Shown here: positions 1,310-33,149 of the stretch, in pieces
Layout of the letters: each line of letters starts with the position of its first letter
Position numbering within the stretch: the first letter of the stretch is position 1
From: Kordiimonadales bacterium IMCC3096
GTDB lineage: Bacteria > Pseudomonadota > Alphaproteobacteria > Minwuiales > Minwuiaceae
Direction: 5' to 3'
NCBI GenBank assembly: GCA_016865035.1
Contig: CP018227.1
Location: 900,001 to 964,000, forward strand
DNA length: 64,000 nt
Translations under genes and position numbers: made by a program
The notes under the pieces: generated by a model
Databases searched by the model: none
Told to the model about the DNA's origin: nothing
The model's input: only the letters and a program-made list of their open reading frames with translations

Positions 1310-2182
1310 ATGATCAGCGGACGCACGAAACTGATCGCCCATCTCGGTCTGCCGATCGGGAGCTTCATGGCGCCCATGATCTACAATCCCTATTTCGAGA
1401 AACACGACATCGATGCGGTCGTGATGCCGATGGGCTGTCAGGAAGCCGACTACGCGACGTTCCTGCCGCAGGTGGCGCGGCTGTCCAACTTCCTCGGCGC
1501 GCTTGTCACCATGCCCTACAAGACCGCGACCGTGGCCCTGCTGGATGAGGTCACCACGACGGTCTCCGTTGCCGGAGCCTGCAACGCCGTCAGGCGCGGC
1601 ACGGATGGTCGGCTGATCGGCGACATGTTCGACGGCGAGGGCTTCGTTCGCGGCGTCAGGCGAAAGGGGCGTGGGATTCGGGGATCGCGCGTTCTGGTGA
1701 TCGGCAGCGGCGGCGTCGGGTCGGCGATCTCCGCCTCCCTGGCCGGGTCCGGCGCGGCCTGCATCGGCCTGCGCGACACCAACCACCGGATCATGGACGG
1801 GCTGGCCAGTCGGCTGACGGCGTTCTTTCCGGACCTGACCGTGCAGACCGACGCCCCTGCCGACGGCGGCTGGGACGTGATCGTCAATGCCACGCCTCTG
1901 GGCATGAACGCCAGTGACCCGATGCCGATGGATGTTTCCGCCGTCGCCCCCTCCACGCTGATCGGCGAGGTCGTGATGGCGCGCGAGATCACGCCCTTTC
2001 TGGCAGCGGCTCAGGCGCGTGGCTGTGAAATCCAGGTTGGTGTCGATATGCTTTTCGAGCAGATACCGGCCTATCTCGAATTCTTCGGTCTGCGTTCGAC
2101 CACCCCGGAAGAACTGCGCGCCGTTGCCCGGATCGGCTACAGGTTCGACAGCGCAGGATCATCGACAGGAGGCACGACATGA
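1310..2182 (+). CDS. Shikimate/quinate dehydrogenase-like protein with altered substrate pocket
   Basis: A 290-residue AroE-family protein. The Rossmann glycine loop GSGGVG is at 132-137. Catalytic Lys (K71 in MPYK), Asn (N92), Asp (D108 in MFDGEG) and the C-terminal ML-x-EQ glutamine (Q251) are all present. The normally invariant N-terminal GNPIxHSxSP segment reads GLPIGSFMAP (13-22), so the two serines that hold the shikimate carboxylate in AroE become F19 and A21. Its stop overlaps the pcaH start (ATGA), so it is translationally coupled to protocatechuate dioxygenase. That fits a catabolic rather than biosynthetic role, perhaps oxidation of quinate, shikimate or a related ring acid. The specific substrate is not predictable. 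A canonical aroE is probably elsewhere in the genome. Confidence 0.75.
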   Translation: MISGRTKLIAHLGLPIGSFMAPMIYNPYFEKHDIDAVVMPMGCQEADYATFLPQVARLSNFLGALVTMPYKTATVALLDEVTTTVSVAGACNAVRRGTDGRLIGDMFDGEGFVRGVRRKGRGIRGSRVLVIGSGGVGSAISASLAGSGAACIGLRDTNHRIMDGLASRLTAFFPDLTVQTDAPADGGWDVIVNATPLGMNASDPMPMDVSAVAPSTLIGEVVMAREITPFLAAAQARGCEIQVGVDMLFEQIPAYLEFFGLRSTTPEELRAVARIGYRFDSAGSSTGGTT

Positions 2183-2892
2183 CTTCGACCCCGTTCCGGC
2201 CGCGCGACTGGTCGTCTCACCCGTCGTTCGTCGATCCCCGCGCCGACGGGTACAGGTCTTCCGCGCTCAGGGGACCGACGAAGCCGCTGATTCCGATCCG
2301 CCAGTCCCTGTCGGAGCTGACCGGTCCCGTCTATGGCCACGACAGCGTCGGCGAACTGGACGGGGACCTGACCCGGAACGGCCGCCGCAATGGCGAGCCG
2401 CTGGGGGAGCGGATCGTGGTCACCGGTCGGGTGCTGGACGAGAATGGCCGACCGCAGCCGAATACGCTGATCGAGATCTGGCAGGCCAATGCGGCGGGCC
2501 GCTACCTCCACAAGGTCGATCAGCACGATGCGCCCATCGATCCGAACTTCTTCGGCGGCGGCCGCTGCATCACCGACAGTGAAGGCCGCTACCGGTTCTA
2601 CAGCATCAAGCCCGGCGCCTACCCCTGGGGCAATCACCCCAACGCCTGGCGCCCCAACCACATCCATTTCTCGCTGTTCGGACCGGCCTTCGCGACCCGG
2701 CTGGTGACCCAGATGTATTTTCCGGGTGATCCGCTGCTGGCACTCGATCCGATCTTCACAGGAATTCCGGAGGCAGCGCGGGATCGTCTGGTCGCCGACT
2801 TCTCGATTGATGTCACGGAGCAGGATTTCGCCCTTGGCTATGTCTTCGACATTGTCCTGCGTGGACGCGGCACCACCCCGATGGAGGATTGA
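2179..2892 (+). CDS. pcaH: Protocatechuate 3,4-dioxygenase, beta subunit
   Basis: A 237-residue intradiol ring-cleavage dioxygenase subunit that opens protocatechuate to 3-carboxy-cis,cis-muconate, the first step of the ortho (beta-ketoadipate) pathway. All four non-heme Fe(III) ligands are visible: Y109 (GRYLHK), Y148 (GAYPW), H161 and H163 (PNHIHF), almost at the numbering known from Pseudomonas PcaH. The segment LIEIWQANAAGRY and the C-terminal FDIVLRG strand are family hallmarks. It begins inside the stop of the AroE-like gene and is followed three bases later by pcaG. No pcaB, pcaC, pcaD or PcaQ regulator is in the window, so the later pathway steps must be encoded elsewhere. Confidence 0.93.
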   Translation: MTSTPFRPRDWSSHPSFVDPRADGYRSSALRGPTKPLIPIRQSLSELTGPVYGHDSVGELDGDLTRNGRRNGEPLGERIVVTGRVLDENGRPQPNTLIEIWQANAAGRYLHKVDQHDAPIDPNFFGGGRCITDSEGRYRFYSIKPGAYPWGNHPNAWRPNHIHFSLFGPAFATRLVTQMYFPGDPLLALDPIFTGIPEAARDRLVADFSIDVTEQDFALGYVFDIVLRGRGTTPMED

Positions 2893-2895
2893 GCC

Positions 2896-3486
2896 ATGGC
2901 GCTGAAGCAGACCCCTTCACAGACCGTCGGCCCCTTCTTTGCCTACGGGCTGACGCCGGAGCAGTACGGCTATGACCTGACCAGTGTCGCCGATGGCGCC
3001 GTCCGCGATGACGATACGGCGGGAACGCATATCCGTATCGAAGGCCGCGTCCTGGACGGTCGAGGCGATGTGGTGAGTGATGCCATGATCGAGATCTGGC
3101 AGGCGGACGCCCAGGGCCGCTATGCCCACCCCGATGATCCGCGCGGCTCCAACGCCGGTTTCACCGGTTTCGGGCGCCAGGGAACGGGCACCGATCTGCA
3201 GAGCCGCTTTCGCTTCGACACCGTCAAGCCGGGCGTCACCGAAGACGGCAGCGCGCCGCATGTCAGCCTGATCGTCTTCGCACGCGGGCTGCCCAGCCAC
3301 GCCTATACCCGCATCTATTTCGCCGACGAGGCCGCCGCCAACGCCACCGACCCCGTGCTGTCACAGGTCCCGGCGGAGCGCAGGGAAACGCTGATCGCGC
3401 AGAGAACGGACACATCGGGCGTTCCGACGTACCGGTTCGACATTCACCTGCAGGGCGACAATGAAACGGTGTTCTTCGACGTGTAG
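2896..3486 (+). CDS. pcaG: Protocatechuate 3,4-dioxygenase, alpha subunit
   Basis: A 196-residue partner of PcaH and homologous to it, but lacking the tyrosine/histidine iron ligands, as expected for the structural alpha chain. Recognisable segments are TPSQTVGPFF at the N-terminus, EIWQADAQGRYAHP, GFTGFGR, FDTVKPG and the C-terminal FDIHLQG. The alpha-beta protomer multimerises around the iron in PcaH. The gene starts three bases after pcaH and ends before the tRNA-Leu pair on the opposite strand. No terminator with a T-run is visible between pcaG and the tRNA. Confidence 0.92.
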   Translation: MALKQTPSQTVGPFFAYGLTPEQYGYDLTSVADGAVRDDDTAGTHIRIEGRVLDGRGDVVSDAMIEIWQADAQGRYAHPDDPRGSNAGFTGFGRQGTGTDLQSRFRFDTVKPGVTEDGSAPHVSLIVFARGLPSHAYTRIYFADEAAANATDPVLSQVPAERRETLIAQRTDTSGVPTYRFDIHLQGDNETVFFDV

Positions 3487-3546: not shown

Positions 3547-3632
3547 TGGTGCCCAGGAGAGGACTCGAACCTCCACTCCGTTGCCAGAACTAGCCCCTCA
3601 AGCTAGCGCGTCTACCATTTCGCCACCTGGGC
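3547..3632 (-). tRNA. tRNA-Leu (anticodon GAG)
   Basis: Read on the minus strand, the acceptor stem GCCCAGG (3632-3626) pairs with CCTGGGC (3557-3551), followed by discriminator A and an encoded CCA (3549-3547). The anticodon stem CTAGC/GCTAG encloses TTGAGGG, giving anticodon GAG. A long variable arm (class II) and the T-loop GGTTCGAGTCC are present. It lies downstream of a near-copy, tRNA-Leu(CAG), with about 90 bases between them. The two are probably co-transcribed. Confidence 0.95.
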
Positions 3633-3722: not shown

Positions 3723-3809
3723 TGGTGCCCAGGAGAGGACTCGAACCTCCACTCCGTTTCCAGAACTAGCACCTGAAGCTAGCGCGTCTACCAATTCCGC
3801 CACCTGGGC
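3723..3809 (-). tRNA. tRNA-Leu (anticodon CAG)
   Basis: On the minus strand the acceptor stem GCCCAGG (3809-3803) pairs with CCTGGGC (3733-3727), with an encoded CCA. The anticodon loop TTCAGGT gives anticodon CAG, which reads the common CTG leucine codon of this GC-rich genome. It has a class II long variable arm. It differs from the neighbouring tRNA-Leu(GAG) at only a few positions (D-loop, anticodon loop, variable arm), indicating a tandem duplication. It is preceded by a good promoter match at 3836-3864. Confidence 0.95.
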
Positions 3810-3835: not shown

Positions 3836-3864
3836 GTTCTAGCGATTGCCCCGGTTCTGTGCAA
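3836..3864 (-). promoter_or_regulatory. Promoter for the tRNA-Leu pair
   Basis: On the minus strand, TTGCAC (3864-3859) and TAGAAC (3841-3836) are separated by exactly 17 bases. The predicted start of transcription lies near 3829, about 20 bases before the 5' end of tRNA-Leu(CAG). Both hexamers fit alphaproteobacterial housekeeping promoters. Confidence 0.55.
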
Positions 3865-3977: not shown

Positions 3978-4634
3978 ATGACCATGGAAGTCGACCTGTT
4001 CTGGTCGTTTCGCAGCCCCTACTCCTACCTCGGCACGCCGCGCTATCGGGAGATGGAGCGGGAACACGATCTGAAGATCAATGTGCGTCCGGTCTACCCC
4101 ATCGCGATTCGCACACCGGAATTCTTCAGCGACGTGAATCCGCTCTGGCCGCGATACCTGATGCGCGACGTCTTCCGTGTCGCCGACTATCTGGAACTGC
4201 CGTTTTCCTGGCCCGAACCCGACCCCGTGGTCATGGACATGCCGACGCGGACGATCCCGAAGGAACAGCCCTATATCCATCGCCTGACGCGGCTGGGGAT
4301 CGAGGCCGTGAATCGCGATGCCGGGCTGGCCTTCATCTCGGAGGTTTCGGACCTGATCTGGGGCCGCGCCGTTAAGCAGTGGCACGAAGGCGATCACCTG
4401 GCGGAGGCGACGGCGCGCGCCGGGCTGGACCTCGCCGACATGGAAGCCACCATCGCCGGGCGGGAGAGTGAATATGGCGACGCCATCGCCGCCAATGAGG
4501 CCGCGCTGGAAAAGGCCGGACACTGGGGCGTGCCGACGCTGGCGTTCAAGGGGGAGGCCTTCTTCGGTCAGGACCGGATCGACATGTGCATCTGGCGCAT
4601 GCAGAAGGCGGGCCTGCAGCCCCGCAAGGCGTGA
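3978..4634 (+). CDS. 2-hydroxychromene-2-carboxylate isomerase / DsbA-family protein
   Basis: A 218-residue thioredoxin-fold protein of the HCCA isomerase (kappa-class GST-like) family. The N-terminal FWSFRSPYSYLG contains the family Ser-Pro-Tyr-Ser-Tyr segment, whose serine activates glutathione in HCCA isomerase. The C-terminal GVPTLAFKGEAFFGQDRID is the cis-Pro region and binding loop. There is no signal peptide and no CxxC, so it is cytosolic and not a disulfide oxidoreductase. I start it at the ATG at 3978, because AAGGA precedes that codon and the longer frame would run into the tRNA promoter. It heads a closely spaced five-gene plus-strand group. The family acts in aromatic catabolism, but the substrate here is unknown. 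Confidence 0.8.
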   Translation: MTMEVDLFWSFRSPYSYLGTPRYREMEREHDLKINVRPVYPIAIRTPEFFSDVNPLWPRYLMRDVFRVADYLELPFSWPEPDPVVMDMPTRTIPKEQPYIHRLTRLGIEAVNRDAGLAFISEVSDLIWGRAVKQWHEGDHLAEATARAGLDLADMEATIAGRESEYGDAIAANEAALEKAGHWGVPTLAFKGEAFFGQDRIDMCIWRMQKAGLQPRKA

Positions 4635-4640
4635 TCGCGA

Positions 4641-5681
4641 ATGGCTGACGACGGACACGAAGAAGGCCCGCGCACCAATGGCCACAAGGTCAACGGCCAC
4701 AAGCATCCGGCGCTGTCGCCCACCGGCAGGGTCAGTCCGCCAGCGGCGGCAAGCAGCGAGGACCTGCCGTTCGATTTCGAGGCGGCGCGACGCGCCCTGA
4801 CCCCGATCCAGAGCGAGGTTCCCGAGGACGCCTTCACCGCCGGCATCCTGGGCACCGAACGTCAGGGCGGCGGGATCGTCATCGGGGCCGACAGTCTGGT
4901 GCTGACCATCGGCTATGTGGTGGTGGAGGCGGAGAGCGTTGCCGTGCTCAATGCGGGTGGTGAGCCCATCGAGGCCGATGTCGTGGCCTATGATTTCGAA
5001 AGCGGGCTGGGTCTGGTGCGTGCCATCGAACCACTGGGACGACCGGTACTGGAGTTCGGCACCGCGCGTGACCTGAGCGAAGGCTCCACCGTCGTGGCCA
5101 GTTGCGGCGGCGCGGAGACCGTGATGCAGAAGATCGTCAGCAAGCGGCGTTTCTGCGGCTACTGGGAATATCGGCTGGATGAGGCACTGTTCACCATGCC
5201 GGTGCATCCCAACTGGGGCGGCGCGGCGCTGCTGGGCCTGGATGGCCTGCTCTATGGTGTCGGGTCGCTTTATGTCGAGGACGCGCGGGAGGGCGAGGAA
5301 GAGGCCGTCGGCAACATGTTCGTCCCCATCGACCTGCTGGAGCCGGTCCTGGACGAACTGCTGCTGGACGGTCGCCGGTCCGGCCCGCCACGGCCATGGA
5401 TCGGGGTCTATGCGGCGGAGCAGAACGGTCACCTCATCATCATGGGCGTGGCACCCTCCGGCCCCGCGGCGGCCATCAAGCTGGCGCAGGGCGACGTCGT
5501 CCTGCGCGTCAACGAGGTGGCGATCGGCGGCCTGAACGATTTCTATGACCAGCTCTGGGGTGCCGGTCCGGCAGGTGTCGAACTGGGACTGACCCTGATG
5601 CGGGACGGGCGGGTCTTCGAGAGCCGCATCCGTACCGCTGCCAGAGACAGTTTCCTGAAGATTCCCCGCTGGGAGCGTTGA
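4641..5681 (+). CDS. DegP-like (S1C) pseudoprotease with PDZ domain
   Basis: A 346-residue protein with a low-complexity His/Asn/Pro N-terminus (1-45), a trypsin-like S1C fold (about 65-235) and a C-terminal PDZ domain (about 250-335: PWIGVYAAEQNGH, GPAAAIKLAQGDVVLRVNE). The fold is recognisable, but every catalytic position is lost. The T-N-x-H segment reads LTIGYVV (His replaced near G91), the D-x-x-x-D-L-A-V segment reads DFESGLGLV (Asp to G122), and GNSGGP reads HPNWGGAA (Ser to W192). There is no signal peptide, unlike the active DegP encoded at 31743-33149. It is therefore probably a cytosolic binding or scaffold protein. It starts six bases after the HCCA-isomerase gene. Confidence 0.75.
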   Translation: MADDGHEEGPRTNGHKVNGHKHPALSPTGRVSPPAAASSEDLPFDFEAARRALTPIQSEVPEDAFTAGILGTERQGGGIVIGADSLVLTIGYVVVEAESVAVLNAGGEPIEADVVAYDFESGLGLVRAIEPLGRPVLEFGTARDLSEGSTVVASCGGAETVMQKIVSKRRFCGYWEYRLDEALFTMPVHPNWGGAALLGLDGLLYGVGSLYVEDAREGEEEAVGNMFVPIDLLEPVLDELLLDGRRSGPPRPWIGVYAAEQNGHLIIMGVAPSGPAAAIKLAQGDVVLRVNEVAIGGLNDFYDQLWGAGPAGVELGLTLMRDGRVFESRIRTAARDSFLKIPRWER

Positions 5682-5683
5682 AC

Positions 5684-6103
5684 ATGGCAAAGCTCAGCAC
5701 CGCAGGCGGGCCGCCCGCCAGTCACGCCATCGAACATCTGGCCGACGTCGTGAACGCCGACCAGCCCCTGGTGCATCGCGGGCGTTTCATCGACCTGCAA
5801 TGGCTCTGGCAGATCGGCGAGGTGCCCTATTTCATCAGCATCCGGCGCGGCATGATCCTGGAACTGGTACGCGGGCCGGTGCTGATGCGGTCGCATGAAT
5901 TTGCCATCCGGGGGGCGCAGGAAAACTGGGAACGGTTCTGGGCGCCGATGCCGCGCCCCGGTTTTCATGACCTGTTCGCCATGACCAAGTCCGGCCGCGC
6001 CAGCATTGACGGCAACCTGCAGCCCCTGATGGCCAACCTGCGCTATTTCAAGGAGGTGCTGGCCGCCCCGCGCAAGCTGGCGGAGGATGGACACCATGGT
6101 TGA
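5684..6103 (+). CDS. SCP2-like small protein (putative)
   Basis: A 139-residue soluble protein. The pattern of a Gly/Val-rich strand (PYFISIRRGMILELVRG), an ENWERFWAPMPRPGFHDL helix region and a SGRASIDGN turn followed by a helix resembles the sterol-carrier-protein-2-like fold, in which small hydrophobic ligands are bound. I do not recognise a specific named family, so this is fold-level inference. The start is the ATG at 5684, three bases after the previous stop; a TTG at 5678 would overlap it. Its last bases overlap the start of the alpha/beta hydrolase (ATGGTTGA), implying coupled translation and a shared substrate or pathway. Confidence 0.55.
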   Translation: MAKLSTAGGPPASHAIEHLADVVNADQPLVHRGRFIDLQWLWQIGEVPYFISIRRGMILELVRGPVLMRSHEFAIRGAQENWERFWAPMPRPGFHDLFAMTKSGRASIDGNLQPLMANLRYFKEVLAAPRKLAEDGHHG

Positions 6104-6944
6104 GCTGGAGCCCATTGTCGGACGCTACATGACCCTTCAGATCGGGGGACGGTCCTGCCGCATCTACTTCGAGGAGGCCGGATCCGGCATTCCGCTGCTC
6201 TGCCTGCACACGGCCGGGGCGGACGGGCGGCAGTTCCGCCGCCTGATGCTCGACCCCGCGATCACCGACCGCTACCGCGTCATCGCCTTCGACCTGCCCT
6301 GGCATGGCAAGTCACTGCCGTGGGAAGGGTACGAGGTCGAGGACTATGCCCTGACCACGGATTTCTACACGGCGGCGATCATGGGCGTGGCGAACGCGCT
6401 GGAGCTTGACCGCCCGGTGGTCATGGGATGCAGCATGGGCGGCCGCATCGTGCTGCATCTGGCCCATGCCCATGCGGACGACCTGCGTGCCGTGATCGGG
6501 CTGGAGGCCGCGGACCATCAGCAGCCCTGGTACGACACCGAATGGCTCAACCGTCCGGACGTGCACGGGGGCGAGGTCTGCGCCGCCATGATCTCCGGCC
6601 TGGTCGCACCGCAGAGCCCTGACCGCTACCGCTGGGAGACCCTCTGGGGCTACCTCAGCAGCGGGCCGGGCGTGTTCCGGGGCGACCTGCACTTCTATCG
6701 CGCTGATTCCGACTTCCGCGACCGCGTGCACCTGATCGACACCACCCGCTGTCCGGTGTTCCTGCTCACGGGGGAGTATGATTTCTCCTGCACCCCGAAG
6801 GACACCCTGCGGACCGCCAAGGACATTCCCGGCGTCGAGGCGGAGATCATGGAGGAACTGGGCCACTTCCCCATGTCGGAGAACCCGGAGAAGTTCCGGG
6901 AATACATCCTGCCCGTACTCGACCGGGTGGCCCGCCTGAAATGA
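6096..6944 (+). CDS. Alpha/beta-fold hydrolase
   Basis: A 282-residue cytosolic hydrolase. The catalytic triad can be read: nucleophile S113 in GCSMGG, acid D229 in TGEYDFSC and H257 in ELGHFPMSENP. The oxyanion HTAGADGR is at about 38-45. It resembles C-C bond or ester hydrolases of aromatic and terpenoid breakdown, but substrate cannot be assigned. I start at the ATG at 6096, because GGAGG lies nine bases upstream; the ATG at 6087 would sit directly on that Shine-Dalgarno. It overlaps the preceding SCP2-like gene by eight bases. A membrane protein gene follows after 13 bases. Confidence 0.85.
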   Translation: MVELEPIVGRYMTLQIGGRSCRIYFEEAGSGIPLLCLHTAGADGRQFRRLMLDPAITDRYRVIAFDLPWHGKSLPWEGYEVEDYALTTDFYTAAIMGVANALELDRPVVMGCSMGGRIVLHLAHAHADDLRAVIGLEAADHQQPWYDTEWLNRPDVHGGEVCAAMISGLVAPQSPDRYRWETLWGYLSSGPGVFRGDLHFYRADSDFRDRVHLIDTTRCPVFLLTGEYDFSCTPKDTLRTAKDIPGVEAEIMEELGHFPMSENPEKFREYILPVLDRVARLK

Positions 6945-9699: not shown

Positions 9700-9793
9700 C
9701 TCAATGCTCCTGCCTTCGGACAGGCCGGAGGCTGACACCGGGCGGCGTCCGTGGCAAGCTTCGCCCGTTCCGCCTTGGACACGGGGGTTTGCA

Positions 9794-10420
9794 ATGGCAC
9801 ACGATCATCATGGTGACGAAATGACGGAGCCGCCGTCGGAGATGGCGCTGCGCGTGCAGGCGCTGGAATCCCTGCTGGTGGAGAAGGGGCTGGTCGATCC
9901 GAAGGCCCTGGATGTCATCGTCGACCGCTACGAGAATCGCGTAGGACCACGCAATGGCGCCCATGTGGTCGCCCGCGCCTGGACCGACCCGGACTATCTG
10001 GAACGCCTGCGCGCCGACGCCACAGCCGCCATTGCGGAGCTGGACTATACCGGCCGCCAGGGGGAGCACATGGTGGTGGTGGAGAACGGGCCGAAGCTGC
10101 ACAATCTCGTCGTCTGCACGCTCTGCTCCTGCTACCCGTGGCCGGTGCTGGGCCTGCCACCGGCCTGGTACAAGTCCTCCCCCTACCGCAGCCGCGCGGT
10201 GATCGATCCGCGCGGGGTGCTGGCGGAGTTCGGCACGATGCTGGATGAGGATGTGGAGGTGAAGGTCTGGGACTCGACCTCCGAGGTGCGGTTCCTGGTC
10301 CTGCCCGAACGGCCGGAGGGAACGGAAGGCTGGACGATTGAGCAGCTCATCCCGCTTGTCAGCCGCAATTCCATGATCGGTGTGGAGAAGGCCCGCCCCG
10401 CCACCGGAGCCGCGGCATGA
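9794..10420 (+). CDS. nthA: Nitrile hydratase alpha subunit, cobalt type
   Basis: A 208-residue metal-binding subunit that hydrates nitriles to amides. The metal claw VCTLCSC (C108, C111, C113) carries threonine at position two, the cobalt-type signature; iron enzymes have serine. [13 protein letters not shown] and [12 protein letters not shown] follow, as in characterised enzymes. I start at the ATG at 9794, where a His-rich N-terminus begins; the longer frame from 9704 lies in the intergenic region. The gene overlaps nthB by ATGA. No amidase, aldoxime dehydratase or cobalt transporter gene is adjacent. Confidence 0.93.
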
Positions 10421-11082
10421 ACGGCCCGCACGACATGGGCGGGATGCACGCCTTTGGTGCCATCAACCCGGAACCGGAGGAGTCAGAGCCGCTGTTCCAT
10501 GAACCATGGGAGCGGAAGGCACTGGCGCTGACCCTGGCCTGTGGTGCGCTGGGACAATGGTCGATCGACGAGGCGCGCTCGGTTCGCGAATCGCTCGACC
10601 CCGCGCTCTATACCTCCTCCAGCTACTACCAGAAATGGGTCGAGGCCCTGACTCGGCAGGTTGTCGAGAAGGGCTTGCTGACCTCTGAAGAGCTTGAGAC
10701 CGCAACCGTCCGCCAGATGCCGGAACCGGGCCGCTATCGTGTTCTGAATGCCGAAGCCGTGGACAAGGTCTATTCCGCTGGTGGCCCGACCAGCATGGAC
10801 ATCGACAATGCCCCCCTGTTCAAGGTCGGCGATCTGGTCCTGGCCCGCAACATGAACCCCATCGGTCACACCCGCATTCCCCGCTATGTCCGGGGCCACG
10901 TGGGCGAGATCGTGCTGTGGCATGGTGGGCATGTCTTTGCCGACGACAGTGCGCGGGGCATCCGGCGCGGCGAACATCTCTATACCGTGCAGTTCATGGC
11001 CCGCGACCTCTGGGGACCGGAGGCGGCGGCGCAGGACTCGGTGATGGTGGATCTCTGGGAACCCTATCTGGAAGCGCCATGA
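10417..11082 (+). CDS. nthB: Nitrile hydratase beta subunit
   Basis: A 221-residue partner of the alpha chain. The N-terminal half is the helical [10 protein letters not shown] and FHEPWE (27-32) region. The C-terminal half is the SH3-like barrel ([35 protein letters not shown]) that packs against the alpha subunit. Both halves are in one chain, which argues against thiocyanate hydrolase, where they are split. It is coupled to both neighbours by four-base ATGA overlaps, giving a strict alpha-beta-accessory order. Confidence 0.93.
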
Positions 11083-11456
11083 CCCCTGCCACCACGCCAG
11101 ACCAACTGCCCGCGCTGGAGGCCCTGCCGGACCTGCCCCGGGACGACGACGGACCTGTCTTCCGCGAACCCTGGGAAGCCAGCGCCTTTGCCATCACGCT
11201 GGAACTGCATGCGGCCGGCCACTTCACCTGGGACGAATGGGCGACCACGCTGAGCCAGCAGATCAGCGCGGCGCAGGCGGCGGGCGATCCCGACCTCGGC
11301 AATACCTATTACCGGCACTGGCTCGCGGCGCTGGAGTCCCTGGTGACGACAAAGGCACTTGCCACGCCGGAGGCGCTGGACCTGCGCGCGCAGGACTGGG
11401 TCCGCGCCTATCGCAGCACGCCCCATGGACACCCGGTCAAACTGAAGACCGGCTGA
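11079..11456 (+). CDS. Nitrile hydratase accessory protein (P14K-like)
   Basis: A 125-residue small protein homologous to the N-terminal half of the beta subunit: FREPWEASAFAITL (28-41) corresponds to [14 protein letters not shown] in NthB, and YYRHWLAALESLV to [13 protein letters not shown]. Proteins of this type act as self-subunit-swapping chaperones or cobalt-insertion activators of cobalt nitrile hydratases. I start it at the ATG at 11079, which overlaps the nthB stop (ATGA); the longer frame from 10917 lies inside nthB. Position and similarity make the assignment solid, while its mechanism here is inferred. Confidence 0.85.
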   Translation: MTPATTPDQLPALEALPDLPRDDDGPVFREPWEASAFAITLELHAAGHFTWDEWATTLSQQISAAQAAGDPDLGNTYYRHWLAALESLVTTKALATPEALDLRAQDWVRAYRSTPHGHPVKLKTG

Positions 11457-30433: not shown

Positions 30434-31746
30434 TCACTCTCCCCCGCGCGGCGGTCACGGATCCTGTTCCAGTAGGCCAGGCGCTTGCCCACCTCGCGCT
30501 CGAAGCCGCGTTCCACAGGCTGGTAGAACTGTTGTCGCGGCATGTCATCGGGGAAATAGTTCTGACCCGAGAAGCCGTCTTCCTGATCATGGTCATAGGC
30601 ATAGCCCTTGCCATACCCCAGATCCTTCATCATGCCCGTCGGCGCGTTCAGGATATGCATCGGCGGCGACAGGGAGCCGGTGGCGCGCGCGGCCTTCTGC
30701 GCCTGTTTCATGGCGACATAGGCGGCGTTCGATTTCGGCGCCGTACCGAGGTAGAGCACCGCCTGCGCCAGTGCCAGTTCCCCCTCCGGCGAGCCGACGA
30801 AATCATAGGCCGCCTTGGCGGCGAGCGCCTGGTGCAGCGCCTCCGGATCCGCCAGCCCGATGTCCTCCGAGGCGAAGCGGACCAGACGCCGGGCGATGAA
30901 CAGCGGGTCCTCGCCCCCCGCCAGCATCCGCGCCAGCCAGTAGAGCGCCGCGTCGCAGTCCGACCCGCGCAGCGACTTGTGCAGGGCACTGATCAGATTG
31001 TAGTGGCTCTCCTGCCCCTTGTCGTAGATCGGCGCGCGGCGTTGCAGCGCCTCCGCCAGTTCCGACGGTTCAAGCGGTGACGGGGGCGCCAGACGGTAGA
31101 GTTCCTCCGCCAGGTTGAGCAGATAGCGGCCATCTCCGTCCGCCATGGCCTTCAGTGTCAGCCGCCCGTCCGCGGTGAGTGGCAATGGCGCTTCCATCAG
31201 GGCTTCCGCCCGGGTCAGCAAAGCCTCCAGCGCCGCATCATCATGCCGCCGCAATACCAGCACCTGACAGCGCGACAGCAGCGCGGGATTGAGCTCGAAC
31301 GACGGATTCTCGGTCGTCGCGCCGATCAGCACGATGGTCCCGTCCTCCACCACCGGCAGGAATCCGTCCTGCTGCGCGCGGTTGAACCGATGGATCTCGT
31401 CAACGAACAACAGGGTGCCGCGTCCGTCGCTGCGCCGGGCCCGCGCCTGATCAAAGGCCTTCCGCAGGTCGGCGACGCCAGAGAACACGGCGGACAGTTG
31501 CACGAACTCCATATCGACCGAACCGGCCAGCAGCCGTGCGATGGTGGTCTTGCCGGTTCCCGGCGGGCCCCAGAGAATCACCGCCCCCGGACGGCGCTGC
31601 GCGGCCATGCGGGCGATGGGTCCCTCCCCCGTCAGCAGATGATCCTGCCCTACGACCTGTTCCAGCGACTGCGGCCGCAGACGGTCTGCCAGGGGTCGGG
31701 GAATGCCGTCATCAACGCCCGCCGCCTCGAACAGGGAACCGGTCAT
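30430..31746 (-). CDS. rarA: Replication-associated recombination ATPase RarA/MgsA
   Basis: A 438-residue AAA+ ATPase that acts at stalled replication forks. Walker A is GPPGTGKTTIA and Walker B LLFVDEIHRF, with sensor 1 IGATTENPSF. The C-terminal tetramerisation domain includes DKGQESHYNLISALHKSLRGSD and the conserved YKYPHD-like end (PVERGFEREVGKRLAYW). I start at the ATG at 31746 overlapping the degP stop (ATGA); 31806 would sit inside degP. The gene order degP-rarA-crcB-rluC after rplQ is common in alphaproteobacteria. Confidence 0.93.
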   Translation of the reverse strand: MTGSLFEAAGVDDGIPRPLADRLRPQSLEQVVGQDHLLTGEGPIARMAAQRRPGAVILWGPPGTGKTTIARLLAGSVDMEFVQLSAVFSGVADLRKAFDQARARRSDGRGTLLFVDEIHRFNRAQQDGFLPVVEDGTIVLIGATTENPSFELNPALLSRCQVLVLRRHDDAALEALLTRAEALMEAPLPLTADGRLTLKAMADGDGRYLLNLAEELYRLAPPSPLEPSELAEALQRRAPIYDKGQESHYNLISALHKSLRGSDCDAALYWLARMLAGGEDPLFIARRLVRFASEDIGLADPEALHQALAAKAAYDFVGSPEGELALAQAVLYLGTAPKSNAAYVAMKQAQKAARATGSLSPPMHILNAPTGMMKDLGYGKGYAYDHDQEDGFSGQNYFPDDMPRQQFYQPVERGFEREVGKRLAYWNRIRDRRAGESE

Positions 31747-33149
31747 GAATTCCGCCTGGCACGGACCTGATGGGCGCGACCGGCGCGCAGGACATCGATG
31801 ACCCATTGCTCCGGCTCGTCGGCCAGCCGACGGTCCAGTCCACGGGTGCGCTCGACCGGCCGTCCGTTGACACTGCGGATGATATCGCCGGGCCGGAAGT
31901 CGAAGCGCGAGACGGGCGCACCCCGGCGCACGCCAAGGATGATCACCCCGCGCTGCATCGGGTCCAGATCCAGTTCCAGCGCAAAGGCCGGCGACATGTT
32001 GCCTACCTTCGCCCCCTGCAGCGGATGGCTGCCCGACAGATCCACGACGTCCCGTGGCGGGTCCTCCGGCGCGGCCTCCAGCGGCAGGGCAAGCGACAGT
32101 GTCTCACCACGCCGCCAGACCGTCAGATCGACCTCCCCCCCGATTGGCAGGGTCGCGATGCGAAACTGCATCTCTGCCGGATCACGGACCGCGCGCCCGT
32201 CGACCCGCAGCACCACGTCGCCCTGACGCAGTCCGGCACGCTCTGCCGCGCCGCCCGGATAGAGATCCGCGACCAGCACGCCGCCTGGCCTCGCCCGCCC
32301 GATGCCCTGGGCCAGGTCAGCCGTCAGATCCTGCCCTTCCATACCGACCCACGCCCGCACCAGTCCCGTGCCATTGCGTGCGGCCTGAACGACCGCCGCC
32401 ACCAGGTCGGCCGGAATGGCAAAGCCGACACCATGGCTGCCCCCCGACCGGGAAAAGATCGCGGTATTGACCCCGACCAGCAGCCCGTCGATGCCGACCA
32501 GCGCCCCGCCCGAATTGCCCGGATTGACCGCCGCATCGGTCTGGATGAATGACTGCGGCCCACCGGAATCGGTCACGTGACTGCGGGCCAGACCGGAAAT
32601 GATGCCGCTGGTCACGGTCTGGCCGACACCGAACGGATTGCCGATGGCCAGCACGATATCGCCCACCCGAATGGTGTCGGACGACCGCACCCGCAGGAAC
32701 GGCAGATCTCCGCCCTCCGGTTCGATCGAGAGCACGGCGAGATCCGTATCCTCGTCCGACAGCACCAGCCGTGCCTCGAACTCCCGCCGGTCGTTGAGGA
32801 CAACCGTGATGTCCTCCGCATCCGCCACGACATGATGGTTGGTCACCACCAGCCCCGCCCCATCCATGATCACGCCGGACCCGAGGGAGCGTTCCTCCTT
32901 CGGGCGGTTGCGCCGGAACACGTCACCGAAGAAACGACCAAAGAAGGGATCATCGAACAGGGGATTGGCGCGCTGCCGTACCATGCGCTTGGCGTAGATG
33001 TTCACCACCGCCGGTGCCACCTGCTCCACCAGCGGCGCGAAGCTCTGGGTCAGCGCAGCACGGTCCTGCGGAACCGTCTGGGCGGAGGCCGAGGCGACCG
33101 CCACGGTCACCGCGAAAGCCAGCAGGGGCATGAACAGGATCTTGCGCAT
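31743..33149 (-). CDS. degP: Do-family periplasmic serine endoprotease
   Basis: A 468-residue HtrA/DegP-type protease with a signal peptide (MRKILFMPLLAFAVTVAVAS), catalytic triad H106 (TNHHVV), D136 (DTDLAVL) and S213 (NPGNSGGAL), and two PDZ domains (about 265-355 and 370-460). It degrades or refolds damaged periplasmic proteins. It lies just below the rplQ terminator with only 31 bases to its start. It is a useful contrast to the degenerate homologue at 4641-5681. No sigma-E or Cpx-like site was recognised upstream. Confidence 0.93.
   Translation of the reverse strand: MRKILFMPLLAFAVTVAVASASAQTVPQDRAALTQSFAPLVEQVAPAVVNIYAKRMVRQRANPLFDDPFFGRFFGDVFRRNRPKEERSLGSGVIMDGAGLVVTNHHVVADAEDITVVLNDRREFEARLVLSDEDTDLAVLSIEPEGGDLPFLRVRSSDTIRVGDIVLAIGNPFGVGQTVTSGIISGLARSHVTDSGGPQSFIQTDAAVNPGNSGGALVGIDGLLVGVNTAIFSRSGGSHGVGFAIPADLVAAVVQAARNGTGLVRAWVGMEGQDLTADLAQGIGRARPGGVLVADLYPGGAAERAGLRQGDVVLRVDGRAVRDPAEMQFRIATLPIGGEVDLTVWRRGETLSLALPLEAAPEDPPRDVVDLSGSHPLQGAKVGNMSPAFALELDLDPMQRGVIILGVRRGAPVSRFDFRPGDIIRSVNGRPVERTRGLDRRLADEPEQWVIDVLRAGRAHQVRARRNS

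Follow-up and report, generated by a model that had tools for sequence, protein, structure and literature searches.

HtrA relatives with a dead active site are known from a few special cases, in magnetosomes and in the Campylobacter motor. The S1C/HtrA proteases DegS, DegP and DegQ combine a trypsin-like domain with PDZ, and DegS carries one PDZ domain. The protein encoded at 4641 to 5681 of the window (the whole 64,000-nucleotide stretch of DNA that was analysed) shares this composition and matches these proteases in fold over its full length; however, it is without the catalytic His, Asp and Ser, without an export signal, and has one PDZ domain.

MamO, a degenerate member of the HtrA group, is described as activating proteolysis that depends on MamE and as binding metal (PMC4794232). 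Its HtrA kinship and degenerate active site are shared with the window protein, and it works without catalysis. It differs in belonging to the magnetosome, in having Thr in place of the catalytic Ser, and in carrying a di-histidine metal site on its surface as well as a transporter domain at one terminus (PMC4794232). In contrast, the window protein ends after its PDZ domain, and the residues that it has lost are different ones. In the Campylobacter flagellar motor, PflC is an HtrA-like structural scaffold that lacks the triad; it resides in the periplasm, contains two PDZ-like domains and no longer has the large loop bearing the His (PMC12222027). The window protein, on the other hand, has one PDZ domain, is leaderless, and its His-loop segment still aligns.

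Inactive homologues have also been surveyed more widely. In a 2008 survey covering five families, 42 of 966 serine proteases are putative inactive homologues (PMC2605481); in a 2019 survey, the share of eubacterial PDZ proteins predicted to be cytoplasmic is 11.16% (PMC6411480). A literature search by title and abstract, with subscription papers and preprints outside its range, found no description of the dead-HtrA family considered here. The family is set apart from MamO and PflC by having a leaderless form and a distinct signature. These two proteins are precedents for dead HtrAs; the family considered here is large and has both leaderless and exported members.

The gene product and its family

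The gene (forward strand) is read as encoding a putative PDZ pseudoprotease of 346 amino acids with no export signal, from its open frame, a 120-sequence family alignment and dN/dS. The reading frame is open, and no candidate start other than the ATG at 4641 lies between the preceding in-frame stop and the conserved domain. Pfam matched Trypsin_2 to residues 76–207 (4866 to 5261, forward strand; E = 1.3e-10), the dead trypsin-like domain, and PDZ_2 to residues 253–327 (5397 to 5621, forward strand; E = 1.5e-9), after which the protein ends. No other Pfam model matched the product, and the terminal transporter domain is absent.

Within the same genome, a paralogue with 44% identity bears a leader and has the same triad losses; it scores 240.8 bits, while the intact-motif HtrAs of this genome score 41.7 and 31.6 bits. 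Of 60 relatives, 15 had a family match (E ≤ 1e-20), as did 97 of the 385 Alphaproteobacteria genomes sampled (E ≤ 1e-30) and 35 of 398 phylum genomes (E ≤ 1e-40), the last comprising 33 from the same class, own genome included, and two from another class. A protein 93% identical to the window protein is found in a MAG named Minwuia thermotolerans, and a member from Rhizobium has matches in 26 plasmid records. Plasmids of Azospirillum also carry family members, with 54–55% identity to a Rhizobium protein of the family. Six of the 25 plasmid matches listed are annotated, five as 'S1C family serine protease' and one as 'signal protein PDZ'. Members in MAGs titled Klebsiella pneumoniae (L087) and Candidatus Omnitrophica (L098) cluster within other proteobacterial rows, and these contigs are probably mislabelled or misbinned.

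The 197 loci yielded 172 distinct sequences, with the window's own included and close relatives kept in the counts. One locus search was based on a pair of motif patterns (about TIGY and WEY), which biases it toward conserved places, and the counts were repeated on 101 sequences from profile and protein searches of whole genomes. Sequence extraction required T[IVM][GA][YF] and dropped four loci (L033, L101, L159 and L162) in which the match-start frame was only 16 to 74 codons. These four and 21 more family loci provide 25 further reads made with no motif requirement; one of them (L256) duplicates L134, already in the main set, and another (L268, TVSYLI) would fail the extraction motif.

Triad positions, predicted fold and selection

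The three triad positions were located by three MAFFT modes against two intact-motif HtrAs from the same genome, and five profile alignments to HtrAs gave the same positions. Tyr92 (4914 to 4916, forward strand) stands at the place of the catalytic His, Gly122 (5004 to 5006, forward strand) at that of the Asp, and Gly193 at that of the Ser. In the Trp192-Gly193 pair (5214 to 5219, forward strand), Trp192 aligns in MAFFT with the Asn that precedes the catalytic Ser. Among the 172 distinct sequences, position 92 is Tyr in 170 and Phe in two, position 122 is Gly in all, and position 193 is Gly in 145, Ser in 15, Gln in seven, Ala in three, and Thr and Asn in one each. No sequence has more than one of the three triad residues, and the Ser is lost in 157 of 172. 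The 101 pattern-free sequences are consistent with these counts (position 92: Tyr 99, Phe 2; position 122: Gly 101; Ser in 11 at the third place). So are the 25 further reads, in which position 92 is Tyr in 24 and Phe in one, position 122 is Gly in all 25, and the Ser position holds Gly in 18, Ser in three, Thr in two, and Ala and Pro in one each. A family signature, Trp-Glu-Tyr at residues 175–177 (5163 to 5171, forward strand), is present in 172/172, in 101/101 of the pattern-free set and in 25/25 of the further reads.

A catalytic His or Asp at the aligned place was found in none of the 172 distinct sequences and 25 further reads, and an intact triad was likewise absent from all of them. 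The original prediction had read the catalytic positions as G91, G122 and W192. While G122 is correct, the His and Ser positions are Tyr92 and Gly193, each one residue further on; the loss of the triad itself stands despite these two shifts. The window protein is very likely dead as a classical serine protease and, judged by these residues, would lack protease activity. Thus, the annotation 'S1C family serine protease' should not be taken to mean an enzyme.

The S1C fold, also part of that prediction, agrees with all comparisons made. A single-chain AlphaFold2 model calculated from the alignment of 120 sequences had a mean pLDDT of 88.7 and a pTM of 0.85, with residues 1–28 below 50. The best match in a Foldseek structure search was the HtrA 3mh6 (E = 2.4e-21), and the best match of the family profile to HtrA chains had an E of 2.8e-33. 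VIA-align matched the full-length model to DegP24 (3cs0_A; Z = 25.6, 280 residues aligned) with an rmsd of 8.9, which probably reflects a different angle between the two domains of the model. Against the single protease domain of Rv3671c (3k6y), the rmsd was 2.4 over 188 residues (Z = 22.8). A better match to a non-protease family was rejected since the best fold and profile matches, among the folds in the lists searched, are HtrAs. Self-docking of the C-terminal tail in the protein's own PDZ domain was unsupported: in the AlphaFold2 model, the six C-terminal residues have a confidence of about 58, and a second prediction gave a confidence of 74 for residues 321–330 and 41 for the last residue.

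The window gene is under purifying selection. Compared to genus relatives, dN/dS (Nei-Gojobori) was 0.049 (G002), 0.083 (G001), 0.147 (G004) and 0.338 (G003, 68% identical). The loosest region is the disordered N-terminus (0.13 to 0.75), while the PDZ domain gave 0.027, 0.013 and 0.083 against three close relatives and 0.297 against a fourth. The loss of three catalytic residues and of a leader might suggest a decaying pseudogene or a sequencing error; however, the frame is open, the changes are identical throughout the family, and dN/dS to close relatives is 0.05–0.15. Such an explanation would also need relatives with an intact triad, of which none were found. Recent decay was therefore rejected, and the probability of a pseudogene or error is negligible. 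From the sequences collected, the proteins appear to form an old, conserved family of catalytically dead HtrA/DegS-type proteins.

Leaderless and exported copies and their surroundings

The best 11-residue hydropathy of the window protein is 0.02, compared to 3.23 in the exported paralogue. As the protein shows no hydrophobic leader and has only one possible start, the export signal is missing as had been proposed; leaderless status throughout is a matter of this hydropathy rule and not of a trained predictor or experiment. The rule divided the 172 sequences into 134 leaderless and 38 leader-bearing, using a threshold of 1.9 that was set after viewing the data, and one sequence with upstream noise (L103) was moved manually to the leaderless set. 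A tree, with two HtrAs serving as the outgroup, was made of the 107 members left after thinning at 80% identity. In it, the 32 rows of the leader group form one side of a branch with an SH-aLRT of 80, a quick method, and the leaderless rows comprise basal lineages, the window's included, and a 62-row clade (99).

Where a genome has two full-length copies, one is leaderless and one exported in 38 of 38 cases (37 by rule, G138 by eye). The second copy of G138 (L253) has a hydropathy of 1.77, below the threshold, but its N-terminus and -TF end look exported. Two matches were present in 37 genomes of the 385-genome class sample, 34 with two full-length family genes and 33 with one of each form by rule; four more two-copy genomes came from the search of 60 relatives (G001, G003, G005 and G008), all four with one of each form. 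The second match in G239 is an HtrA with TNHHVV and GNSGG, and both matches in G145 are one gene. In G305, the second match (L261, G305:C1:2060000-2061500) is a lone 185-amino acid fragment of the exported form, covering the last 150 residues with the N-terminal half missing.

The C-terminal tails also divide by form, in counts that contain a few tails truncated by contig ends. A -[ST][YLF] tail was found in 34 of 38 leader copies versus 1 of 134 leaderless, and a -[LM][HQ] tail in 95 of 134 leaderless versus 0 of 38 leader copies. The window copy ends in RWER.

The His/Asn-rich N-terminus that was originally noted amounts to a small enrichment (four His and two Asn in 40 residues) and is mainly a doubled motif, NGHK-V-NGHK, at residues 13–21 (4677 to 4703, forward strand; from a motif count in the family). 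The pattern NG[HY][KRQH] occurs near the N-terminus of 20 of the 172 distinct sequences (19 leaderless, one with a leader), compared to a rate of 0.0007 in shuffled N-termini. It is doubled in the window gene, and in the tree its carriers fall outside the 62-row leaderless clade. In L113, L115, L116, L117 and L029, an N-terminal VNGH-type stretch grades into leader-like sequence. L113 has NGH followed by a hydrophobic run and an Ala-rich end, and shares the family code f68 with L115 and L117. Such N-termini look as if an export signal arose out of the leaderless form.

The window gene lies in a tight group on the forward strand. Upstream is a DSBA-fold protein (3978 to 4634; Pfam DSBA, E = 1.9e-16), the start of which was taken as the ATG at 3978 while the listed open reading frame begins at a TTG at 3846. 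Downstream are a 139-amino acid protein without a Pfam match (5684 to 6103) and an alpha/beta hydrolase (6087 to 6944; Abhydrolase_1, E = 1.2e-17). Two tRNA-Leu genes (3547–3632 and 3723–3809, reverse strand) come before the group. The group had been described as conserved-looking, and within the genus it is kept, with its gene order unchanged, in all six loci with enough flank; however, the four genes are not grouped in G008 of the same family, and no widely shared neighbour family was found among 80 named loci and the window, where many flanks are short and 79 of the 81 family genes were clustered. The largest neighbour family consists, by eye, of ABC-transporter-type ATPases, in 19 loci at scattered positions. 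Outside the genus, the 139-amino acid protein and the hydrolase occur together in 16 of 16 loci with no pseudoprotease within about 1.5 kb on each side. Since this pair exists elsewhere without the pseudoprotease, the gene group says little on function, and with the group limited to the genus, a function drawn from gene neighbours was rejected. Among exported copies (L210–L229), 7 of 20 adjoin an opposite-strand gene; an example presumably resembles UvrD helicase, and we take this neighbour for regional synteny.

Further along the window, the active DegP that was thought to be encoded there was located at 31743 to 33149 on the reverse strand by motif reading, with intact TNHHVV and GNSGG; it was used for comparison only. 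Positions 9704–11082 hold nitrile hydratase alpha and beta genes (NHase_alpha, E = 1e-86; NHase_beta_N, E = 9.6e-37) with a further open reading frame behind (10917–11456). At 1310–3486, two Dioxygenase_C genes, the first of which also matches a protocatechuate 3,4-dioxygenase beta N-terminal model, adjoin a shikimate-dehydrogenase-like gene.

The former cleft and candidate functions

Over the 101 pattern-free sequences, the mean column entropy is 1.51 bits in the dead protease domain versus 1.85 bits in the PDZ domain, a comparison that holds within the family only. Within the dead domain, the mean is 0.80 bits for 42 columns near the former triad and S1 pocket and 1.72 for the remaining 144, and when this mask was rotated none of 185 rotations was as low, the nearest being 0.85. 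The S1-pocket segments were assigned from HtrA sequence positions rather than coordinates, and are presumed to correspond. Nine residues are invariant in 172/172 (R74, T89, E96, F171, W175, E176, Y177, G194 and N225), although position 96 is Asp in two of the 25 further reads. His189 is present in 133 of 134 leaderless but 19 of 38 exported copies. From their sequence positions, the conserved residues would be expected to face one cleft. Part of the cleft conservation may be inherited structural constraint.

Since the dead domain is more conserved than PDZ, and most of all at the former active-site loops, the protein is read as a repurposed binding protein that acts through both cleft and PDZ domain; we give this reading a probability of roughly 0.6. 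The former substrate cleft would hold a ligand or protein segment non-covalently. Tyr92 and Trp192 would occupy the place of the former catalytic machinery, with R74, E96, W175-E176-Y177, N225 and M226 as the new conserved set. The PDZ domain would bind the C-terminus of a partner, which would make the protein an adaptor or scaffold in the cytoplasm, its presumed location, and the exported sister group would have the corresponding role in the periplasm.

The original prediction placed peptide binding in PDZ, with the protease fold as inert scaffolding. A dead protein with no export signal agrees with the analysis; the emphasis on PDZ fares less well, as the dead domain outconserves it family-wide with the strongest conservation near the former active site. 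Even so, the PDZ fold is retained together with the carboxylate-loop motif PW[ILM]G (Trp253 in 172/172, Gly255 in 171/172), PDZ in the window gene is strongly constrained against three close relatives and less so against the fourth, and the dead domain holds 10 of 14 near-invariant polar and aromatic residues, about the share expected from its length. An adaptor working by PDZ alone is therefore unlikely but deserves some weight. As a conserved cleft would fit a new catalytic site equally well as a binding site, the chymotrypsin fold may instead have been rebuilt on another catalytic set such as E96, R74, E176, Y92 and H189. The charged and aromatic R74, E96, W175, E176 and Y177 in the former cleft, without exception in the 172 sequences, speak for such an enzyme; against it, His189 is missing from half of the exported copies, E96 is replaced by Asp in two of the further reads, and the neighbours give no hint of a substrate. 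We know of no precedent for a rebuilt catalytic set in the HtrA branch, and a new enzyme is considered distinctly unlikely.

The protein might also regulate an active HtrA by mixed assembly, for which the activation of MamE by MamO offers a precedent (PMC4794232). While an exported copy would be in the same compartment as DegP, the window copy is leaderless and the two HtrAs read in this genome start leader-like by eye, so no active partner would be found in its presumed compartment. This role is regarded as very improbable for the window protein.

Beyond the repurposed binding protein, a broader picture may be drawn, tentatively and with rather low confidence. The old proteolytic cleft would have become a new site of ligand recognition, or of catalysis, and duplication would have left one copy to read the cytoplasm and one to read the periplasm. 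Each ending in a characteristic type of C-terminal tail, the copies would be a two-compartment sensor or adaptor pair made from one protease scaffold. With a large family of dead HtrAs present in a quarter of the class genomes sampled (97/385) and taken for a protease in records, it becomes testable what purpose an HtrA scaffold serves when it has neither catalysis nor a leader, and why one copy is kept for each side of the membrane.
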